From Chrysochromulina parva (taxonomy: Eukaryota > Haptophyta > Prymnesiales > Chrysochromulinaceae), in the NCBI GenBank assembly GCA_002887195.1, contig PJAB01001976.1:1-11170 (forward strand): a stretch of DNA of 11,170 nt, written 5' to 3'. This document shows positions 2,583 through 9,834 of this stretch, one piece after another. The notes under the pieces are model-generated. The model was given only the letters and a program-made list of their open reading frames with translations, searched no databases and was not told where the DNA came from. Both the position numbers and the translations under genes were made by a program. Positions within the stretch are counted from its first letter, which is position 1. The number at the start of each line of letters is the position of its first letter.

Positions 2583-4091
2583 TCAGCATCCAGTGCGCTC
2601 CAGCATGCCTTCCAGGTCCGGGCGCTCGCGCAGAAATTTTGGGAACCTGGGCCCGCCTTGAAGGCCTAATTGGTACGCGAAGCTGACGATGCTCCCCGGT
2701 GGCGGCGGCGCCGTGCTACGATTCCAAGTGAGGTCAAAGGTGACGCCTGTATCGAGCGCCTGACAGCGCAGCGAGTCCTTGCCTTTCGCACGGTACTTGA
2801 GCACCTTCGCTTCCGCGTCCAGCCACCGCTTGCACTTGAAGAGGTCGGGCGAGTGCCCCGCGACGAAGCGCGAGGACGCACGGCGCAGGATGAGGCCCTC
2901 TCCGCCGCGCTGGCACACATGTTCGAGGAGCGCCTCCTTGGTAGTGACGTCCTCGCACGCCCTTGTCCCGACGACTTGCACGCGATCGCTCGTCGCCTCT
3001 GCGAACGCGCCGCCTCGGCCGAGCCGCTCGCGCGCCGTCTCGAGCCGCTCCTCAAAGCCGCCACGCGCCCCCGGCGCGTCGAAGACCATGAACTTGACCT
3101 CTGACCAGGTGGCCTCCTGAGGACGCTGCACCGCCGCCCATGTCTGCTCGAAGCGGCCGCGGCCGAGCCATAGCTCACCATCCAGCCGCAGGTCGCGCGG
3201 CAGCAGGGCGAGCATCGAGGGCGGCGGCGTGAGCTCGTTGCCGCGCCGCGTGCGGAAGCAAGGCGGGTCGCGCGCCACCTCCCAGGTCGCTCGCACCCCG
3301 TCGAACTTCTCCATCGCGACAAAGCCGCGAAGGTCCGTGCCAGGGCTGAAGTTGGAGGCGAGCGAAATGCCAAAATTGATCGCATCCTGCTGTCGGCGAG
3401 CCCCAAATCTGCCGCCACCGAAAGCCGCAAAGTGGTTGCCGCCGCTCGGCCTTAAGCGCTCCTCGGGGGGCGGCTTATGACCAAAGTGTAGCGACGCGAC
3501 GCGGGCGTGCACGGGCGCCGGCGGGCCGCCCTCTTCCTGCGACTGCTCCTCGTCGTCCGTCTCTGGCCCGTTCCGCTTGCGCTTGATGCAGCAGCGGCGC
3601 ATGCAGCCAGGCTGCCGTGCGCCCAGGCGGCACAACGGTATTGCTTCAGCTGCTGCGGGTGCGTCGCTTGCCTGATCGCCCAGATGGCACAACGGTGGTG
3701 GAGCTGCCGCAGTGGGTACGTCGTCGCTCACTGGTGTTAGCTCGGCACTCGTAGGTGCTACCGCGGGACCGTCGGTCGACAGCGTGGAATCGACAGAAGG
3801 TTGCACCGACGATGACGCTGCAGGCTGTGAAGAAGGCTTTGAATGCGATGCTCTCGGCGCAGGATAGTTTTCGTCGTTGGTATTGATGAGGGCCGCTAGA
3901 GTTGCGGCGTTGAGCGTTGGTAGTGGGGCGCGCCTGTAAAACTGTTGGAAGGTGCTGTTTTGTGGCATGACGCTGCGTGGCCGCCAGGGCCCAGGACGCC
4001 CGGGGTCGCGGTTGAAGGACTGCACAGACGCGGCAAATCGTGTGTGTGAAGAGCCAGAGAACCAAAAAAGGGTTTGGAACGCGGTAACCAT
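2583..4091 (-). CDS. Small ATP-dependent DNA ligase with long disordered N-terminus
   Basis: This encodes 502 residues that seal nicks in DNA through a lysyl-AMP intermediate. The catalytic half is residues ~225-500. Motif I is EKFDGVRATW with the adenylated lysine at K262. RTRRGNEL (about 279-287) follows, then motif III LDGELW (303-308), VFDAP (336-340), motif IV EGLILR (398-403) and motif V LFKCKRW (417-423). The OB-fold part includes PGSIVSFAYQ and PRFPKFLRERPD near the C-terminus. This matches the compact ligases (bacterial LigE-like, kinetoplastid mitochondrial type) rather than the large LIG1, as no helical DNA-binding domain is seen. Residues 1-225 are low complexity, with a basic cluster RRCCIKRKR (165-173) that could be a nuclear signal. 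A second Met (M42, ATG at 3968) begins MPQNSTFQQFY, resembling a PCNA-binding box. Residues 1-41 are Arg/Ser/Phe-rich with a single acidic residue, as in organelle targeting peptides. No introns. Family call is confident; targeting is inference. Confidence 0.9.
   Translation of the reverse strand: MVTAFQTLFWFSGSSHTRFAASVQSFNRDPGRPGPWRPRSVMPQNSTFQQFYRRAPLPTLNAATLAALINTNDENYPAPRASHSKPSSQPAASSSVQPSVDSTLSTDGPAVAPTSAELTPVSDDVPTAAAPPPLCHLGDQASDAPAAAEAIPLCRLGARQPGCMRRCCIKRKRNGPETDDEEQSQEEGGPPAPVHARVASLHFGHKPPPEERLRPSGGNHFAAFGGGRFGARRQQDAINFGISLASNFSPGTDLRGFVAMEKFDGVRATWEVARDPPCFRTRRGNELTPPPSMLALLPRDLRLDGELWLGRGRFEQTWAAVQRPQEATWSEVKFMVFDAPGARGGFEERLETARERLGRGGAFAEATSDRVQVVGTRACEDVTTKEALLEHVCQRGGEGLILRRASSRFVAGHSPDLFKCKRWLDAEAKVLKYRAKGKDSLRCQALDTGVTFDLTWNRSTAPPPPGSIVSFAYQLGLQGGPRFPKFLRERPDLEGMLERTGC
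3620..3696 (-). repeat. In-frame 57-bp tandem duplication inside the ligase N-terminal region
   Basis: The 20-base segments 3620-3639 and 3677-3696 match at 18 of 20 positions and are 57 bp apart, which is 19 codons. In the protein this gives PLCHLG (133-138) followed by PLCRLG (152-157). The reading frame is kept. It lies in the disordered part and probably has little structural effect. Confidence 0.75.
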
Positions 4092-4180: not shown

Positions 4181-7100
4181 ATGTCGGAGCCGTCGACGCT
4201 TAACGCCGCGTCGCGCGAGCGTGTGATCATCTCGTTTCGCTCGCGCGTCGCCCACGACGAAGCGCGAAAGCTTGTCCACGACGCGCTGCACACGCTCGAG
4301 TGCGCACACGACGGTTGGTGGACGGTCGTGCGCCGGCGCACACCTAGCGCGAGCAACTTTGCTGTGGTCGACATGCGCCTCACGCTGCCGTTGCAGCGCA
4401 CGCGCGCACTTGCAGCGCTGCGCATGCTCGATGCCGTGATTGGGCTCTCACCTGAACGTCGGTATGAGCTTCCGGCGATCCAGCAAGTGGCGGCGACGGA
4501 TGCTTCCGACCATACGGCGCCACCGCCAACGCCGGCTTGTGCCAACTGCTCTCAAGGCGGCTCCACGGAGCGAGCCGAGTGCTCGGCGACCTCCAGTGGC
4601 GACCCTACCGCGCGGCATCCGCTTTCCACCGCCAAGAGGACGGCGACCAACCCGGCAGGCGCCGCGCCTTCGGAGCACACGCCGCAGGTGACGTCAAGGC
4701 TGCATGCGCGTAGGGCATGTGCTCCTCCTCGCCCAGCATGCAAGTGCTCACCACGGCGCCGTGCCTTCCCCGCAGGTGGCATCGAGGCTGCACGCGGAGG
4801 CGCTGTGGCGGCTCGGGTACACGGGCAAGGGCGTGCACGTGGCCGTCTTCGACACGGGGCTGGGGCACGGCTTGCCGCAGCTCGCCGTCGAGGAGCGCAC
4901 AAACTGGACCGACGAGGAGGACTCGGATGATAAGGTCGGGCACGGCACCTTTGTGGCGAGCGTGATCGGCTCGCGCTCCGGCTGCCTCGGCCTCGCTCCT
5001 GACGCCTCGCTCCACATTTACAAGGTGTTCAATTCGAAGCAGGTGAGGGCGCCGAGTGCGTCGTGTGAGTGCGCTTCCTGGCCCGTCCTCAGGGTTTGCT
5101 CATCTGTGAAGCAGGTGTCGTACACGTCGTGGTTCTTGGACGCATTTGACTACGCGCTGCTCAAGCGCGTACATGTACTCAACCTCTCTATCGGTGGCCC
5201 TGACTTTGCCGACCGGCCGTTTATGCGGAAGGTGGGCTGATGGCCACTCGGTGCCTCCCTGATGGCCAAAGGTGCCTCCCTGATGGCTACTAGGTGCCTC
5301 CTTGGTGGCCACTCGGTGCCTCCCTGACGGCCACTAGGTGCCTCCTTGATGGCCACTCGGTGCCTCCCTGACGGTCACTAGGTGCCTCCTTGGTGGCCAC
5401 GATTGGCATCGGGTGGCATCTGGTTGCCTCCGACTGCCACCGATGGCCACCGACTTCGCCGAGCGGCCGTTGATGCTTTCAGGTGGATGAGGTGGTCGCG
5501 GCCAACGTGGTCATCGTCTCCGGCATTGGGAATTCGGGCCCCATGTGGGGAACCTTGATGAATCCAGCCGACCAGCCGGACGTCATTGGCGTGGGTGGGG
5601 TGGATGACGAGGGGCGTCTGGCGGACTTCTCCTCTCGCGGGATGACCTCGTGGGAGCTCCCGGACGGTTACGGTCGCGTCAAGCCGGACGTCCTCACCTA
5701 CGGCACGCATGTGCTTGGCATGTCGCTGCAGGTGAGTGCCCCTAGTTGCCCCTAAATGTGCCTCATTGCCGGACGTCCTCACTTGACTTGACTTGACTTG
5801 GCTTGTCTTGACTTGACTGTCGGCGCATCAGGGAGGGTGCCGGACTCTCTCAGGCACTTCGGTGGCCTGCCCGGTGGTCGCCGGTGCCATCGCCCTGCTC
5901 GCCAGCATTGTCCCAGAGCCGCGTCGGTGGCAGCTACTCAACCCCGGCGCCATCAAGCAGGTGCTGGTGGAGTCGGCGCACCGGCTGCACCGTCGCTCCG
6001 CGTACGAGCAAGGCGCGGGCACCATGGATCTGCTCGGCGCGGCGCAGGTGAGGGCGCTACCCATCGCCTCCACTTATGGCCTCTGATGACCTCTGATGGC
6101 CTCTGATGGCCTCTAATGACCTCTGATGACCTCTGATGGCCTCTGATTGCGCTACCAATCGCCTCCACTGATGGCCTCTGATGGTCACACACTGGTTTCT
6201 CACGCCCGCTCCCTGCCGAGCGGAGCCCCTCGACGCGGCGCAGCTTGTGACCGAGTACCGTCCGCACGCATCGGTGATACCCCCCACCCTCGACCTGTCG
6301 CCGTGCCAACCGACGGGGGCGCCTGTGCTGGGCGACGGGTACATGTGGCCGTTGTGCGCGCAACCGCTCTACCATGGTGCGCTGCCCGCGCTCGTCAACC
6401 TGACAGTCCTCAACGGGATGGCTCGCGTCTCCTCCTTCTCGAGGGCTCCAGTCTTCTCGACGAGCATCGCGGCGCATGCCTCCCTTCTCGAGATTTCGTT
6501 CGAGCACCAGCAGCTGCTTTGGCCGTGGGGTGGGACGCTCGGCGTGGCGCTGCGCCCAACGAGCGCGGCCGCCGCCTTTGAAGGTCTGATCCACGGTGTG
6601 ATCACCTTTGAGCTCAAGGCGGTGGGCGGCCTGAACGCGGGCGCCACCTCGGCTGTGTCGGTGCCGGTGGTGGCTCACGTGGTGCCCACCCCGGCGCGCC
6701 ATCGACGCCTCCTCTGGGACCAGGTGTGCTTGCATCTGATGGTCCCTCTGAGGACTATGCTGATGTGTGTTGATGGCCCCTCTGACGACTTTTCTGATGT
6801 CTCTGATGGTCCCTCTTGATGGCCTCCCCCTGATGGCCCAGTTGAGGACCCCTCTGAGAGCCTCTCGGATCATCGCTCTTGCCGGTGAGCAGGCGCACTC
6901 GGTGCGCTACCCTCCGTCGTACTCCCCCCGCGACAATCTCGCCGTCACTGACGAAATGCTTGATTGGACCGGGGACCACATTCACACCAATTACCGCGAT
7001 CTCTTCATTTGGCTGCGCGAGCAAGGCTACTACGTCGAGACGCTTGGGTGCGCCTTCACATGCTTCAATGCGACCGAGTACGGAGCACTCCTGCTCGTCG

Positions 7101-8677
7101 ATTCGGAGGCCGAGTACGGCGCGCTCGAGGTGATCGCCCCCCATTTGCCCCCGAATCGCCCCTCGAGTGCTGCTCATAGCCCTCGAGTGCACATGGTTGA
7201 CCATGGATGGACCGCCCCTCTTTCACTCGACCTCTTCCACTCGGAGGCCAACTACTCCCCGAATCGCCCTAATCGCCCTGATTTCCCTAATCGCCCTAAT
7301 CGCCCTAGTTGCCCTTGAATGCTCATGATGGTTCATGGTGCCTCCTCTTCCGCCCCGAGGCCGACTACCCTCCTGATCGCCCTAGTGAGCACCCTCCCGA
7401 CTGCCCTCCCCTCGCTGTCCCTCCCGACTGCAGGCGCGCAAGCTGCGTCACGACGTGATGCAGCGCGGCCTGTCCCTCATCGTGCTCGCCGACTGGTACA
7501 ATCCAGCCGTGATGAAGACCCTTCGCTTCTTTGATGAGAACTCGCAGGTGCGCCGCCTGATGCGCCTGATTGCGCCTGATTGCTTCTTTGATGTGAACTC
7601 GCCACAGCCCCTATGTGTGTCTGCTGGCCTTCTCTAACTCTGCTCCTCGGCGAGCGCCGCGTTGGGCATGCGCAGTCGTGGTGGACTCCGGTCACGGGCG
7701 GCGCCAACGTGCCCGCGATCAACGAGCTGCTCGCGCCGTTTGGCGTGGCTTTTGGCGACGCTGTCCTGCGCGGCGATCTGAGCGTTGGCGGCTCGGCGGT
7801 GCAGCTCGCCTCCGCCGCACAGATCGTGCGCTTCCCTGTGGGCGGCTGGCTCGTGCGCGCTGCCTCCCTTCAAGACGAGGGTGCCAAAATCGCCGGCGTG
7901 CTTCCCTTTATGCGCGTGCGGCGCAACGTGCCGATCCTCGGCTTGTTGCAACCGCGCGCGCCGGGCGCTGGCCGACTAGTCACGTTTGGCGACTCGGAGT
8001 GCGTCGACTCACTCGCCGCACAGCAGGGCTCCGCGCCGTGTTGGTGGCTGCTCCAGGCGCTCCTCACCTTTGCATGCGACGGTCGTCGCGACCCGGCGCT
8101 CTTTCCGGATCACTTGCGCCTCTTGCAGTCACTCGGCGACTCGGAGCCTCTGCCAGCACGCGCGCCCACCTTGAGCAGCGCGCATGGCGATACGCGCTCC
8201 GCCGCGGCCGACGATGCCAATCCGTCCGCATGCCTCCTCTCCCGCCTCGGCCTCACCCCGGCACCCGTCGGCCTTGGCCGTGCCGAATGGTCCTCCCTAC
8301 CCGACGAGCCGTTTGGTGTGCTCGCCCATTGGCCGCATGCCGCCGCGGAGCCTTTCCTGCCCGATCTGTCCGCGGCCGACCTGACCATGGCGCGCTCCAT
8401 CGCCCCCGATGGCAGCGGCGCGGAGGACAGCGGCGCCGGCGGCTTTGGCGCGGCCCACCTGCTCGCGACACGTGCGGCCTCAGCGGCCCTCGTGCTGCTC
8501 ACGCTGGGCGCGGGCCTGTTCTACACATTTGCACGCGTGCGCGTGGGCACCGGTGGACGTGCTGCGCGGGCTTCGGGCGGAAGCCGTAGCAACCGCGGAC
8601 AGCCCTCGCCGCTCAAGGGCAGCCGACAGCGAGGCGCGAACTCGGCCGTTAGCAGCAATCGGTTGCATGCCGTCTGA
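4181..8677 (+). CDS. MBTPS1: Membrane-bound site-1 protease (S1P, subtilase family), nine exons
   Basis: S1P is a Golgi/ER membrane subtilase that makes the first luminal cut in membrane-bound transcription factors such as SREBP and ATF6-type bZIPs. The spliced model joins 4181-4687, 4776-5042, 5115-5231, 5483-5731, 5832-6047, 6244-6723, 6893-7129, 7434-7547 and 7676-8677: 3189 nt, 1062 residues, against about 1050 in animals. All eight introns are GT-AG and phase 0. A prodomain-like region covers residues ~12-100 and a variable linker ~105-169. The catalytic residues are D195 (VAVFDTGLG), H225 (GHGTFV), N314 (GIGNSG) and S390 (LSGTSVACP). Also diagnostic are [30 protein letters not shown]-type [10 protein letters not shown] and TGGANVPA. 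One transmembrane helix lies at ~996-1015, followed by a basic tail. No signal peptide is visible after the ATG at 4181, so an upstream exon may be missing from the model. Splice sites were chosen by family alignment from memory and by frame. Confidence 0.92.
4688..4775 (+). other. Intron 1 of the site-1 protease gene (88 bp), with a copy of the exon 2 start
   Basis: It runs from gtgacg to ccccgcag, between Q169 and V170. The 27 bases 4682-4708, which span the 5' splice site, match 4770-4796, which span the 3' splice site, at 23 of 27 positions, and all four differences are transitions. The start of the intron is therefore a diverged copy of the start of exon 2 (VTSRLHA against VASRLHA), and both copies contain cag|gtg. 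Confidence 0.88.
5043..5114 (+). other. Intron 2 of the site-1 protease gene (72 bp, no stop codon)
   Basis: It runs from gtgagg to gaagcag, and the joined exons read [10 protein letters not shown], as in the family. Its length is a multiple of three and the frame through it is open, so retention would add 24 residues without ending the protein. The 10-base gaagcaggtg spans both splice sites 72 bp apart; the match is short and could partly reflect splice-site preference. Confidence 0.85.
5232..5482 (+). other. Intron 3 of the site-1 protease gene (251 bp), with exon 3 tail copy and 22-bp satellite
   Basis: It runs from gtgggc to gctttcag, between K297 and V298. Just before its 3' splice site, 5452-5476 matches the exon 3 end at 5202-5226 at 22 of 25 positions; the copy still reads DFAERPLM where the exon reads DFADRPFM. 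Most of the rest is the tandem array annotated separately. Confidence 0.88.
5238..5400 (+). repeat. 22-bp tandem array within intron 3, about 7.5 copies
   Basis: Seven units (5238, 5260, 5281, 5303, 5325, 5347, 5369) of 21-22 bp end in ggtgcctcc(c/t), followed by a decaying half unit. From unit 3 on, two versions alternate, one with ctagg followed by cctcct and one with ctcgg followed by cctccc. A 44-bp higher-order period therefore lies on top of the 22-bp one. Confidence 0.9.
5732..5831 (+). other. Intron 4 of the site-1 protease gene (100 bp), with exon 4 fragment copy
   Basis: It runs from gtgagt to cgcatcag; the joined exons read [13 protein letters not shown]. The 15 bases gccggacgtcctcac at 5768-5782 are an exact copy of exon 4 positions 5683-5697 (coding for PDVLT), 85 bp away. 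The copy is followed by the pentanucleotide array. Confidence 0.87.
5782..5816 (+). repeat. Pentanucleotide (cttga)n array in intron 4, seven units
   Basis: Seven consecutive 5-bp units, five exactly cttga and two with one change (cttgg, cttgt). It directly follows the exon 4 fragment copy, so slippage has probably overwritten the rest of that copy. Confidence 0.92.
6048..6243 (+). other. Intron 5 of the site-1 protease gene (196 bp), with exon 5 tail copy
   Basis: It runs from gtgagg to gcggcgcag; joined exons read [12 protein letters not shown]. The last 21 bases (6223-6243) match the last 21 bases of exon 5 (6027-6047) at 17 positions, including cgcggcgcag at the end. A 35-bp segment at 6054-6088 recurs at 6149-6183 with two differences, bracketing the 10-bp array. 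Confidence 0.86.
6071..6150 (+). repeat. 10-bp tandem array (ctctgatggc) in intron 5, eight units
   Basis: Eight decamers stand in register, mostly ctctgatggc or ctctgatgac, with end units drifting. Further copies of the core follow at 6168-6184. Because 10 is not a multiple of three, all three frames read the repeat in turn, which produces long spurious open frames on the opposite strand. Confidence 0.92.
6724..6892 (+). other. Intron 6 of the site-1 protease gene (169 bp), repeat-rich
   Basis: It runs from gtgtgc to ggtgagcag; joined exons read [13 protein letters not shown]. The 15 bases tctgatggtccctct occur at 6735-6749 and again at 6802-6816, and tgatggcc occurs at 6771, 6817 and 6831. 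A copy of the exon 6 tail is not convincing here. Confidence 0.85.
7130..7433 (+). other. Intron 7 of the site-1 protease gene (304 bp), with two copies of an exon 7 segment
   Basis: It runs from gtgatc to cgactgcag; joined exons read [14 protein letters not shown]. Exon 7 positions 7094-7117 (coding for LVDSEAEY) recur at 7232-7255 (19 of 24) and 7345-7368 (17 of 24). The two intron copies match each other at 20 of 24, so one was probably made from the other. The word cctcgagtgc is also repeated at 7161 and 7181. Confidence 0.86.
7262..7315 (+). repeat. 9-bp tandem array (aatcgccct) in intron 7, six units
   Basis: Six nonamers in a row: four are exactly aatcgccct and two have drifted (gatttccct, agttgccct). 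The array follows directly after the first intronic copy of the exon 7 segment. Confidence 0.92.
7548..7675 (+). other. Intron 8 of the site-1 protease gene (128 bp), with exon 8 tail copy
   Basis: It runs from gtgcgc to gcatgcgcag; joined exons read [14 protein letters not shown]. Positions 7581-7602 match the exon 8 end at 7524-7545 at 20 of 22 positions, and the copy still reads CFFDVNS where the exon reads RFFDENS. The copy ends near a ccacag that looks like an older 3' splice site. A ctaac at about 7634-7638 is a possible branch point. Confidence 0.88.
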
Positions 8678-8793
8678 GGTACAAAGTGTCATTCATGATT
8701 CCTCAAAATTCCTCAGGCCTGCAACGCTGTCGCAGCTTCGACGACGTCCGGGACACGTCATCATCAAGAAGAAACCGAGCTCTAGACGTCGCG

Positions 8794-9834
8794 ATGCTTG
8801 CGTGGCAGGCGCTTGCGTATGGCGTGGACGGCAATCCGGGCGACACGATCTCAAAGCTCGTGCTCAAGGACGATGTGCCGATCCCGGTGGCAAAGGACGG
8901 CCAAGTGGTCATCAAGGTTGAGATCTGCGCCATCAACCCGATCGACTGGAAGCTCTTCTCAGGCGGCTTTGATGGCATGTTCCCTCTAACTTTCCCGTAC
9001 ACGCCGTGCTTCGACATTTCCGGCACCGTTAGTGCGGTCGGTGCTGGCGTCACGGCACTTGCGGTGGGAGATGAGGTGTGCGTCGACCTTGGCTTGGTGG
9101 AAACCTGTGGAGCCGGGAAACCTCTTGGCCCATGCGGCGGTCTTGCCCAGTACGCAGTGGCCTTGGCAGAGACCGTCTCGAAGCGCGGAACCCTGACCGC
9201 GGAGATTGCCGCTGGCCTTCCGCTGGCTGGGCTCACCGCCTATCAGGCCCTGTTCACTGGCTGCGCCACGAGCTTCGCGGGCACTCCGCTCGGGCAGCTG
9301 ACCTCCGGTCAGAAGCTACTCATCCTTGGAGGCTCAACAGCGGTGGGCCAGTACGCAATCCAACTGGCGAAGAACGCAGGTGTGTCGGTGACCGTGACGT
9401 GCAGCGCCGCGACGATGGCGGACGGCACCTCGAAGGCCGACTACCTCAAGCAGCTCGGCGCTAACGAAACCATCTGCTACAAGGAGGCCGACTGGGCGAC
9501 AGTCCTCGCTGGACGGGACTTCGACCAGATCCTTGATGCGGTGGGCTCCGAAGAAGATTGGGCAAAGGCCCCGGGCGTGCTCAAGGCCGGCGGTGACTAC
9601 GTGACCATCGCCAACTTCACGACGCAGCCCTCGGCAGACGACAAGGTGAAGTTCAAGGTCTTTCTCCTGAAGACCATGGCGTCGGACCTCGACGTCCTGG
9701 TAGGCATGGTGGAGAAGGGCATGCTCAAGGTACCCATCGACCATGTGTACGACTTCAAGGATGCGCCGGCGGCACTTGCGAAGAGCTTCGAGCTCGCCAA
9801 CATGGGCAAACTGCTCGTCAAGGTTCCGCAGTGA
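8794..9834 (+). CDS. Zinc-independent quinone oxidoreductase-type MDR dehydrogenase
   Basis: This encodes a 346-residue medium-chain dehydrogenase/reductase that probably uses NADPH to reduce quinones or enones. The N-terminal GroES-like domain includes VVIKVEICAINPIDWKLFSG (38-57) and FDISGTVSAVG (73-83). The nucleotide-binding fold has LLILGGSTAVGQYAIQLAK (175-193), the family's glycine-rich loop. LKAGGDYV (263-270) and a C-terminal MGKLLVKV are also typical. No GHE zinc motif or structural zinc cysteine cluster is seen, which supports the zinc-free QOR branch, near yeast AST1-type or RTN4IP1-type proteins. The ATG at 8794 was chosen because the conserved part begins there. An upstream in-frame ATG at 8695 would add 33 Ser/Arg-rich residues, perhaps a targeting peptide, but begins only 17 bp after the protease stop. 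Substrate and location are unknown. Confidence 0.88.
   Translation: MLAWQALAYGVDGNPGDTISKLVLKDDVPIPVAKDGQVVIKVEICAINPIDWKLFSGGFDGMFPLTFPYTPCFDISGTVSAVGAGVTALAVGDEVCVDLGLVETCGAGKPLGPCGGLAQYAVALAETVSKRGTLTAEIAAGLPLAGLTAYQALFTGCATSFAGTPLGQLTSGQKLLILGGSTAVGQYAIQLAKNAGVSVTVTCSAATMADGTSKADYLKQLGANETICYKEADWATVLAGRDFDQILDAVGSEEDWAKAPGVLKAGGDYVTIANFTTQPSADDKVKFKVFLLKTMASDLDVLVGMVEKGMLKVPIDHVYDFKDAPAALAKSFELANMGKLLVKVPQ

Follow-up and report, generated by a model that had tools for sequence, protein, structure and literature searches.

Results

The site-1 protease gene of Chrysochromulina parva

The window, i.e. the whole stretch of 11,170 nucleotides analysed here (contig PJAB01001976.1 of assembly GCA_002887195.1), belongs to a genome of 45 Mb in 2199 contigs and harbours a gene for a site-1 protease (S1P), an MBTPS1-like subtilase, at positions 4181..8677 of the forward strand. 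Nine exons (4181-4687, 4776-5042, 5115-5231, 5483-5731, 5832-6047, 6244-6723, 6893-7129, 7434-7547 and 7676-8677) encode 1062 amino acids plus the stop codon. In this gene model all eight introns are GT-AG and in phase 0, and the joined exons make up one frame. Judged by domain similarity, the gene is a site-1 protease: its match to the S1P chain of PDB 8uwc (E = 3.6e-217, 618 of 620 residues given) spans the catalytic and the following domains, and its homologues reach 67% identity at best and 64% in Prymnesium parvum over the region searched. With a query from exon 2 on, no gap occurs at junctions 2 to 8 against the 8uwc chain, and junction 1 (PQ|VA) shows none against the P. parvum homologue. 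The three neighbouring genes, Got1/Sft2-like (930-2096, forward), ATP-dependent DNA ligase-like (2583-4091, reverse) and a zinc-type dehydrogenase (8686-9834, forward), are single open frames, whereas S1P has eight introns.

Intron 1 (4688..4775, on the forward strand like all the introns of this gene) is a putative introner-type intron of what is called here family A. Its GT 5′ splice site and spacer (4688..4708) are identical in 17/21 positions to the start of exon 2 (4776..4796), which is the coding copy of the duplicate, and the whole repeat covers 27 nt with 85% identity (4682-4708 and 4770-4796). Lying between the two copies are a 5′ extension of the insert (4709..4735) of the CTCCTCCTCGCCCA type, found in several other copies, in which GCATGTGCTC is perhaps a degenerate core; a 25-nt conserved core, GCATGCAAGTGCTCACCACGGCGCC (4736..4760), whose motif CTCAC is a putative branch point; and a pyrimidine-rich tail with the 3′ splice site (4761..4775, GTGCCTTCCCCGCAG). 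In the case of intron 3 (5232..5482), a minisatellite with a 22-nt unit (5237-5400) lies between two exon-end copies (5192-5226 and 5441-5476; 25 nt from 5202 on with 88% identity), each followed by AG|GTGG within 6 nt. Intron 5 (6048..6243) combines repeats of the 10-nt ATGGCCTCTG (6076-6184) with a copy of the exon end 6026-6047 at 6222-6243 (22 nt, 82%), which finishes in the 3′ splice site. Introns 4, 7 and 8 hold extra sequence beyond a simple duplicate-insert-duplicate layout. Exon positions 5683-5697 recur in intron 4 (5732..5831) at 5768-5782 (15/15), followed by ACTTG repeats (5781-5818). Intron 7 (7130..7433) carries a diverged copy of the exon end 7086-7117 at 7224-7255 (32 nt, 75%), a second recurrence in which 7231-7271 is found again at 7344-7384 (80%), and CCCTAATCG repeats (7258-7315), and intron 8 (7548..7675) has CGCCTGATTG repeats (7554-7583) and a copy of the exon end 7525-7545 at 7582-7602 (21 nt, 95%). 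As for the remaining two, intron 6 (6724..6892) contains a TCTGATGG-type minisatellite (6735-6816), and intron 2 (5043..5114) only a 10-base repeat over the splice sites (5036-5045 and 5108-5117), six bases of which are the splice consensus CAG|GTG.

Comparison of the flanking exon 60-mers with 1000 dinucleotide shuffles of each intron gave p values of 0.01, 0.47, 0.001, 0.001, 0.001, 0.87, 0.011 and 0.001 for introns 1 to 8, and a Fisher combined p of 1.2e-9. The exon copies reported by the first-pass annotation are thus present where it had placed them, and the shuffled-sequence control that it had proposed is exceeded by the real sequence in 6/8 introns; no significant exon copy was found by this test in introns 2 and 6, so that the 10-base repeat that it had also listed for intron 2 exists but does not stand out from shuffles. 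The p value of intron 1 comes from another alignment, in which the insert is matched with the upstream exon (score 23), while the junction copy itself (17/21) scores 22, the same as the best wrong exon (22). In a sample of six 10-kb stretches, not chosen by insert, 27 local duplications were detected versus 0 in one shuffle each, their spread being uneven and some of them being coding repeats.

A dispersed insert with a 25-nt core

An own-genome search with positions 4682-5500 (S1P introns 1-3) as the query returned, among the 60 places listed, the window itself, 58 matches to the intron 1 part and one to the intron 3 part. The core 22-mer CATGCAAGTGCTCACCACGGCG has 400 exact copies in the 45-Mb genome (221 forward and 179 reverse), and the same 22-mer read backwards has 0. 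Among the fetched loci (137 copies found from a left-hand seed in the core, 160 from a right-hand one), the conserved block is the 25 nt of GCATGCAAGTGCTCACCACGGCGCC, with sharp edges, little conservation before it and a pyrimidine bias after it. This core opens and closes with 6-nt palindromes, GCATGC and GGCGCC. Exact cores with the CCCCACAG end have GT next in 196/224 cases. A longer form of the insert begins (GT)ACGTTGATTG..., and a 22-mer of its 5′ part is found in 40 exact copies. On the other hand, a recognisable CACAG tail follows 73 of 121 exact copies, and 68 distinct tails occur among these 73, which together with the identical 22-mer cores indicates that a single master copy is no sufficient explanation. 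The 400 core copies, as putative introns, would amount to many near-identical introns at unrelated sites, as expected of introners. An Rfam search of positions 4640-4820 gave only a sub-threshold match, to malK-III (E = 4.6, 11.9 bits versus a gathering threshold of 50).

Target duplications around family A

Loose core hits in 231 kb numbered 84, of which 23 were dropped for lack of an AG or of a flank and 61 were scored for a duplication anchored on the splice sites, using as control upstream and downstream flanks of different loci paired with each other. Most scored copies (55/61) exceed the control 95th percentile, and 21/61 exceed the control maximum of 50. The second duplicate starts at exon base 1 in 45/61 scored copies, and does so with GT in 41 of these 45. 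In the 37 clear cases (score of at least 24, offset of at most 1 and gap of at most 40), the first copy opens with GT in 35 and with GA in 2. These two GA-start duplicates, at L022 2307 and L043 1468 (minus strand), are possible non-canonical 5′ splice sites.

A second test, not anchored on the splice sites, covered 119 exact copies, namely those in the first 100 of the 400 places in contig order plus the loci similar to intron 1, excluding copies with less than 80 nt of left or 90 nt of right flank. The threshold of 35.2 is the 99th percentile found in 1182 mispaired comparisons; rare high values occur in the mispaired controls of both tests, with maxima of 72 (unanchored) and 50 (splice-anchored). 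A duplication above the 99th percentile surrounds 71/119 copies. The other 48/119 show none above this threshold, S1P intron 1 falling narrowly below it (34 versus 35.2); in the splice-anchored test it scores 22 versus a control 95th percentile of 20. For intron 1 the evidence is not the shuffle test but the family to which it belongs and the precise placement of its copy at the two splice sites.

Tandem or nested copies account for 8 of the 71, leaving 63 non-tandem ones, whose duplicates are at least 94% identical in 48 cases and still perfect in 22, so that the events look recent to judge by sequence identity. In the 48 well-preserved copies the duplication has a median length of 30 nt (IQR 24-34, range 18-45), counting the AG or CAG common to the insert end; measured from the GT in 40 introns, the median is 29.5 nt (range 16-45). 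Duplicates end within 2 nt of the left edge of the core, GCATGC, in 15/48 copies. With respect to geometry, 41 of the 63 have GT-AG at the duplicate start, 4 inside it, 3 are GC-AG and 15 have none. Copies without usable GT/GC-AG sites (15) and those with them (48) show median lengths of 29 and 31 nt (p = 0.22), and these like lengths indicate that selection for splicing alone does not set the length of the duplication. Of the 15 without splice geometry, five lack the tail, a subset that the search pattern biases. Microhomology at the tail-less junctions was considered and dropped, since it is favoured by a search pattern with CGGCG at its end.

Three loci carry tandem double insertions, in which duplicate, core and tail are followed by duplicate, core, tail and a last duplicate: L026 (forward strand, cores at 1954 and 2028), L028 (reverse strand, 1973 and 2053) and L101 (forward strand, 360 and 433). 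The tails are identical within each pair.

Layout and predicted splicing of family A introns

The layout of family A can be described as exon | GT-duplicate (about 30 nt), 25-nt core, pyrimidine tract and AG | GT-duplicate and the rest of the exon. The 40 introns with GT at the duplicate start are 68-93 nt long (median 75), and their core starts a median of 34 nt (range 26-53) from the 5′ splice site. Core and tail without the duplicate amount to about 42 nt; the first duplicate would supply the GT 5′ splice site and a spacer, bringing the intron to the length observed, and a putative branch region as well as the 3′ splice site would come from the insert. In the same 40 introns the length of the duplicate correlates negatively with the gap (rho = -0.56), the relation expected if introns had a minimum size, although decayed duplicate counted as gap can produce part of this value.

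After removal of the predicted introns the reading frame was continuous in the cases tested. Eight peptides were picked by eye from 45 predicted spliced products and one made separately, and in 7/8 a Pfam domain extends across the predicted junction (bromodomain, ABC ATPase, gelsolin, pyridine-nucleotide oxidoreductase, C2, EF hand and NAD-binding Rossmann), the eighth having no Pfam match. Together with the gapless S1P junctions, these domains suggest insertions into coding exons whose product would be restored by splicing, as expected of introners. The length of the open reading frame before and after predicted splicing was uninformative, since it increased in only 12/45 products.

Family B and other inserts

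A second type of insert, family B, consists of TGATTGCC-type repeats, often ending in CCTCATCAG, and similar minisatellites are found in other S1P introns. Its end TGATTGCCTCCCTCATCAG, a 19-mer, has 730 exact copies. A scan of 268 kb, mostly of loci chosen by the core, for inserts of 20-150 nt and with laxer conditions than those of the 48-copy length measurement, yielded 67 duplications around family A, 27 around family B and 43 around other inserts, with median lengths of 24, 26 and 22 nt; the lengths of A and B do not differ significantly (p = 0.75). The insert between the copies has a median of 48 nt in A and 57 nt in B, inserts of less than 20 nt being excluded. GT-AG geometry is present in 52/67 A, 19/27 B and 10/43 other duplications, as compared to 20% of fake duplications; the other class, with 33/43 lacking such geometry, is about what chance gives and may be mixed or consist of ordinary repeats. 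In family B the splice sites can be a GT at the start of the duplicate, an AG|GT within it or one at its end. An AG|GT lies inside the duplication in 9/27 B and 9/67 A cases, versus 15% of fake duplications. The idea of the first-pass annotation that an AG|GT in the duplicated segment supplies both splice sites at once therefore fits S1P intron 3 and those 9/27 members of family B, but family A is at chance level; what holds more broadly of its proposal is that one or both splice sites derive from duplicated exon.

Some single loci deserve mention. At L017 (8896-9040), a telomere-like insert of 91 nt (AGGGTA/TTAGGG) sits between 27-nt duplicates, with no GT-AG geometry. B-like and A sequences are joined in L037, L057, L081 and L015. 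At L033 (4975-5199), a family A insertion has as its direct neighbour a 32-nt insert of unrelated sequence, flanked by 41-nt duplicates with AG|GT in them, so that two apparently young introns lie within about 225 nt. Finally, L065 (4200-4554) comes from IMG/VR; by eye, its ORFs look phage-like, and the contig ends with a family A core and a GACGAACCCT repeat, which sit between what are, again by eye, duplicates of some 38 nt. As the only viral locus found, L065 was rejected as evidence of a viral carrier of family A, the contig being probably a chimera.

Discussion

The introns described here look like the products of an introner-type process, carrying apparent insertion scars with unusually long target duplications. 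Short inserts placed into coding exons, each duplicating about 20-45 nt of the target, are the probable origin of these introns, and the classification as introner-type insertion with a long duplication has good probability as far as sequence comparison goes. The exon copies would then probably mark the birth of introns, as the first-pass annotation had proposed. The mechanism that it had in mind, local tandem duplication, was right about duplication being involved; the event is not a plain tandem one, since a foreign piece separates the copies.

How the inserts came in is a different matter, and break repair is a way in for which we infer about even chances. Breaks with staggered ends of about 30 nt, both filled in, would yield target duplications, and an existing short sequence (an intron core, a minisatellite or perhaps a telomere-like repeat) would be captured between the filled ends; selection would then retain the products that splice. 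Fill-in of staggered breaks plus capture is favoured over a transposase with fixed stagger by the variable duplications, the unlike inserts, the missing ends and the tandem copies. Against random capture, the sharp-edged core resembles more a mobile element. In its full form, the proposal would be that introns of this haptophyte are minted by DNA break repair and not by a transposase, with ends staggered by about 30 nt sealed around a captured 25-nt 'branch-point cassette' and a newly made pyrimidine tail, and that every such event would assemble a whole intron out of the cassette and exon of the host; so specific a scenario is tentative and somewhat doubtful.

Target duplications of variable length are also left by target-primed reverse transcription, which is unlikely here though the strongest of the rivals; in this case a reverse transcriptase would have copied the core, as a tiny RNA of SINE-like or intronic origin, into a nick. 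Duplications varying between 18 and 45 nt, the sharp left edge at GCATGC with duplicates ending at most 2 nt away in 15/48 copies, and the five or more genomic matches to reverse transcriptase would all fit it. Elements mobilized in this way typically have a fixed 3′ end or tail and a variable 5′ truncation, whereas family A has a sharp left edge, a right end that is mostly CACAG and tails that nearly all differ (68/73), with no poly-A or fixed tail seen. Moreover, right ends are sometimes missing, and inserts made of simple repeats have like duplications.

Much less probable is a plain, local tandem doubling of exonic sequence with AG|GT, with simple repeats expanding later. In its favour, AG|GT follows each of the two copies in S1P intron 3 and occurs inside 9/27 family B duplications (versus 15% by chance), and a gain of this kind is reported for a potato gene (PMC4974935). 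Adjacent copies with nothing foreign between them would be expected, and the copies are in fact separated by median inserts of 48 nt (A) and 57 nt (B): in family A by a dispersed foreign insert with its own AG, in family B by inserts common to unrelated loci (the CCTCATCAG end, 730 exact 19-mer copies). For family A this explanation is refuted by the core common to many loci.

A DNA transposon of the MITE type, moved by a transposase with a short and fixed target duplication, has very little likelihood, even though the core edges are sharp and the 2022 introner survey attributes most introners to DNA transposition (PMC9860276). Instead of a fixed duplication of 3-9 bp, lengths vary from 18 to 45 nt (IQR 24-34, 48 copies), and the edges of the consensus core, GCATGC and the CCCCACAG end, are by eye not inverted copies of each other.

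Later copying of exon into pre-existing introns, by gene conversion or slippage, or assembly artefacts are hardly credible as a general account: S1P introns 4 and 7 do hold copies inside longer introns, where such copying may have occurred, and the assembly is fragmented (2199 contigs), but family A copies start at both splice sites at dozens of loci with only core, short extension and tail between them. The first-pass annotation had kept exon copying in reserve as its alternative, and it suits family A poorly, as the intron consists of duplicate, core and tail and the second duplicate starts exactly at the first exon base in 45/61 copies.

Tandem duplications in rice were reportedly attributed to staggered-break fill-in by Vaughn and Bennetzen in 2014. 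In mouse ES cells, according to the part of the study at hand, nicks 43 bp apart lead through fill-in of 3′ overhangs to small tandem duplications (PMC8355091). These resemble the present ones in reaching tens of nt with no transposase, and are tied there, in the same portion of text, neither to introns nor to a recurring insert (PMC8355091). Intron gain by tandem genomic duplication in the potato RdRp gene shares with our case the duplicated exon sequence; here, unlike in the potato account as far as available (PMC4974935), an insert recurring across the genome separates the copies. Elsewhere, direct repeats close to splice sites, 4-30 bp long with a mean of 11.4 bp, have likewise been interpreted as insertion scars (PMC11782384); in this genome the median is 30 nt and the insert family is identified.

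With regard to known introners, family A is closest in its logic to those of Symbiodinium microadriaticum, where a dispersed insert provides the AG and the duplication the GT; those introners have 4 bp duplications and terminal inverted repeats in the survey text available (PMC9860276), whereas family A has variable duplications of 18-45 nt, no inverted repeats by eye and conservation of the 25-nt core only. Introners of a Chrysochromulina sp. (TARA_PON_109_MAG_00232), as presented in the same text, are alike in having a target duplication and no terminal inverted repeats, and differ in that the duplication is of 4 bp and that the roles of the two splice sites are swapped relative to family A, the 5′ one lying in the element and the 3′ one being recruited (PMC9860276). 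Short direct repeats are also given for introners of Amoebophrya (3-5 nt; PMC7789003, available part) and, with 3-9 bp, for some earlier families cited in the survey (PMC9860276, available part), and the Mirusvirus introners are defined by sequence similarity in what is available of that work (PMC12768974). The open-licence PMC literature searched yielded no description of introners with duplications of around 30 nt. The host of the Chrysochromulina sp. introners is a haptophyte.

The published procedure of the 2022 survey (PMC9860276) admits only introns whose mutual similarity sets in no more than 5 exonic or 10 intronic bases from each end, and it removes families of low complexity, so that neither family A nor family B should have been picked up by it. 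The core of family A, which starts a median of 34 nt (range 26-53) inside the 40 introns measured, would fail that criterion at the 5′ end, and this points to a blind spot of the survey.

The origin of new introns is a long-standing open question, and this genome offers hundreds of copies of one insert for its study. The findings link three models that are usually kept separate: mobile introners, tandem duplication of exons and break repair. They suggest that the duplication turns a cassette of insufficient length for an intron into one by adding a 5′ splice site and the length that it lacks. If the minting of introns by break repair were true, a large share of lineage-specific introns could originate in this way and have been missed by the 2022 survey.
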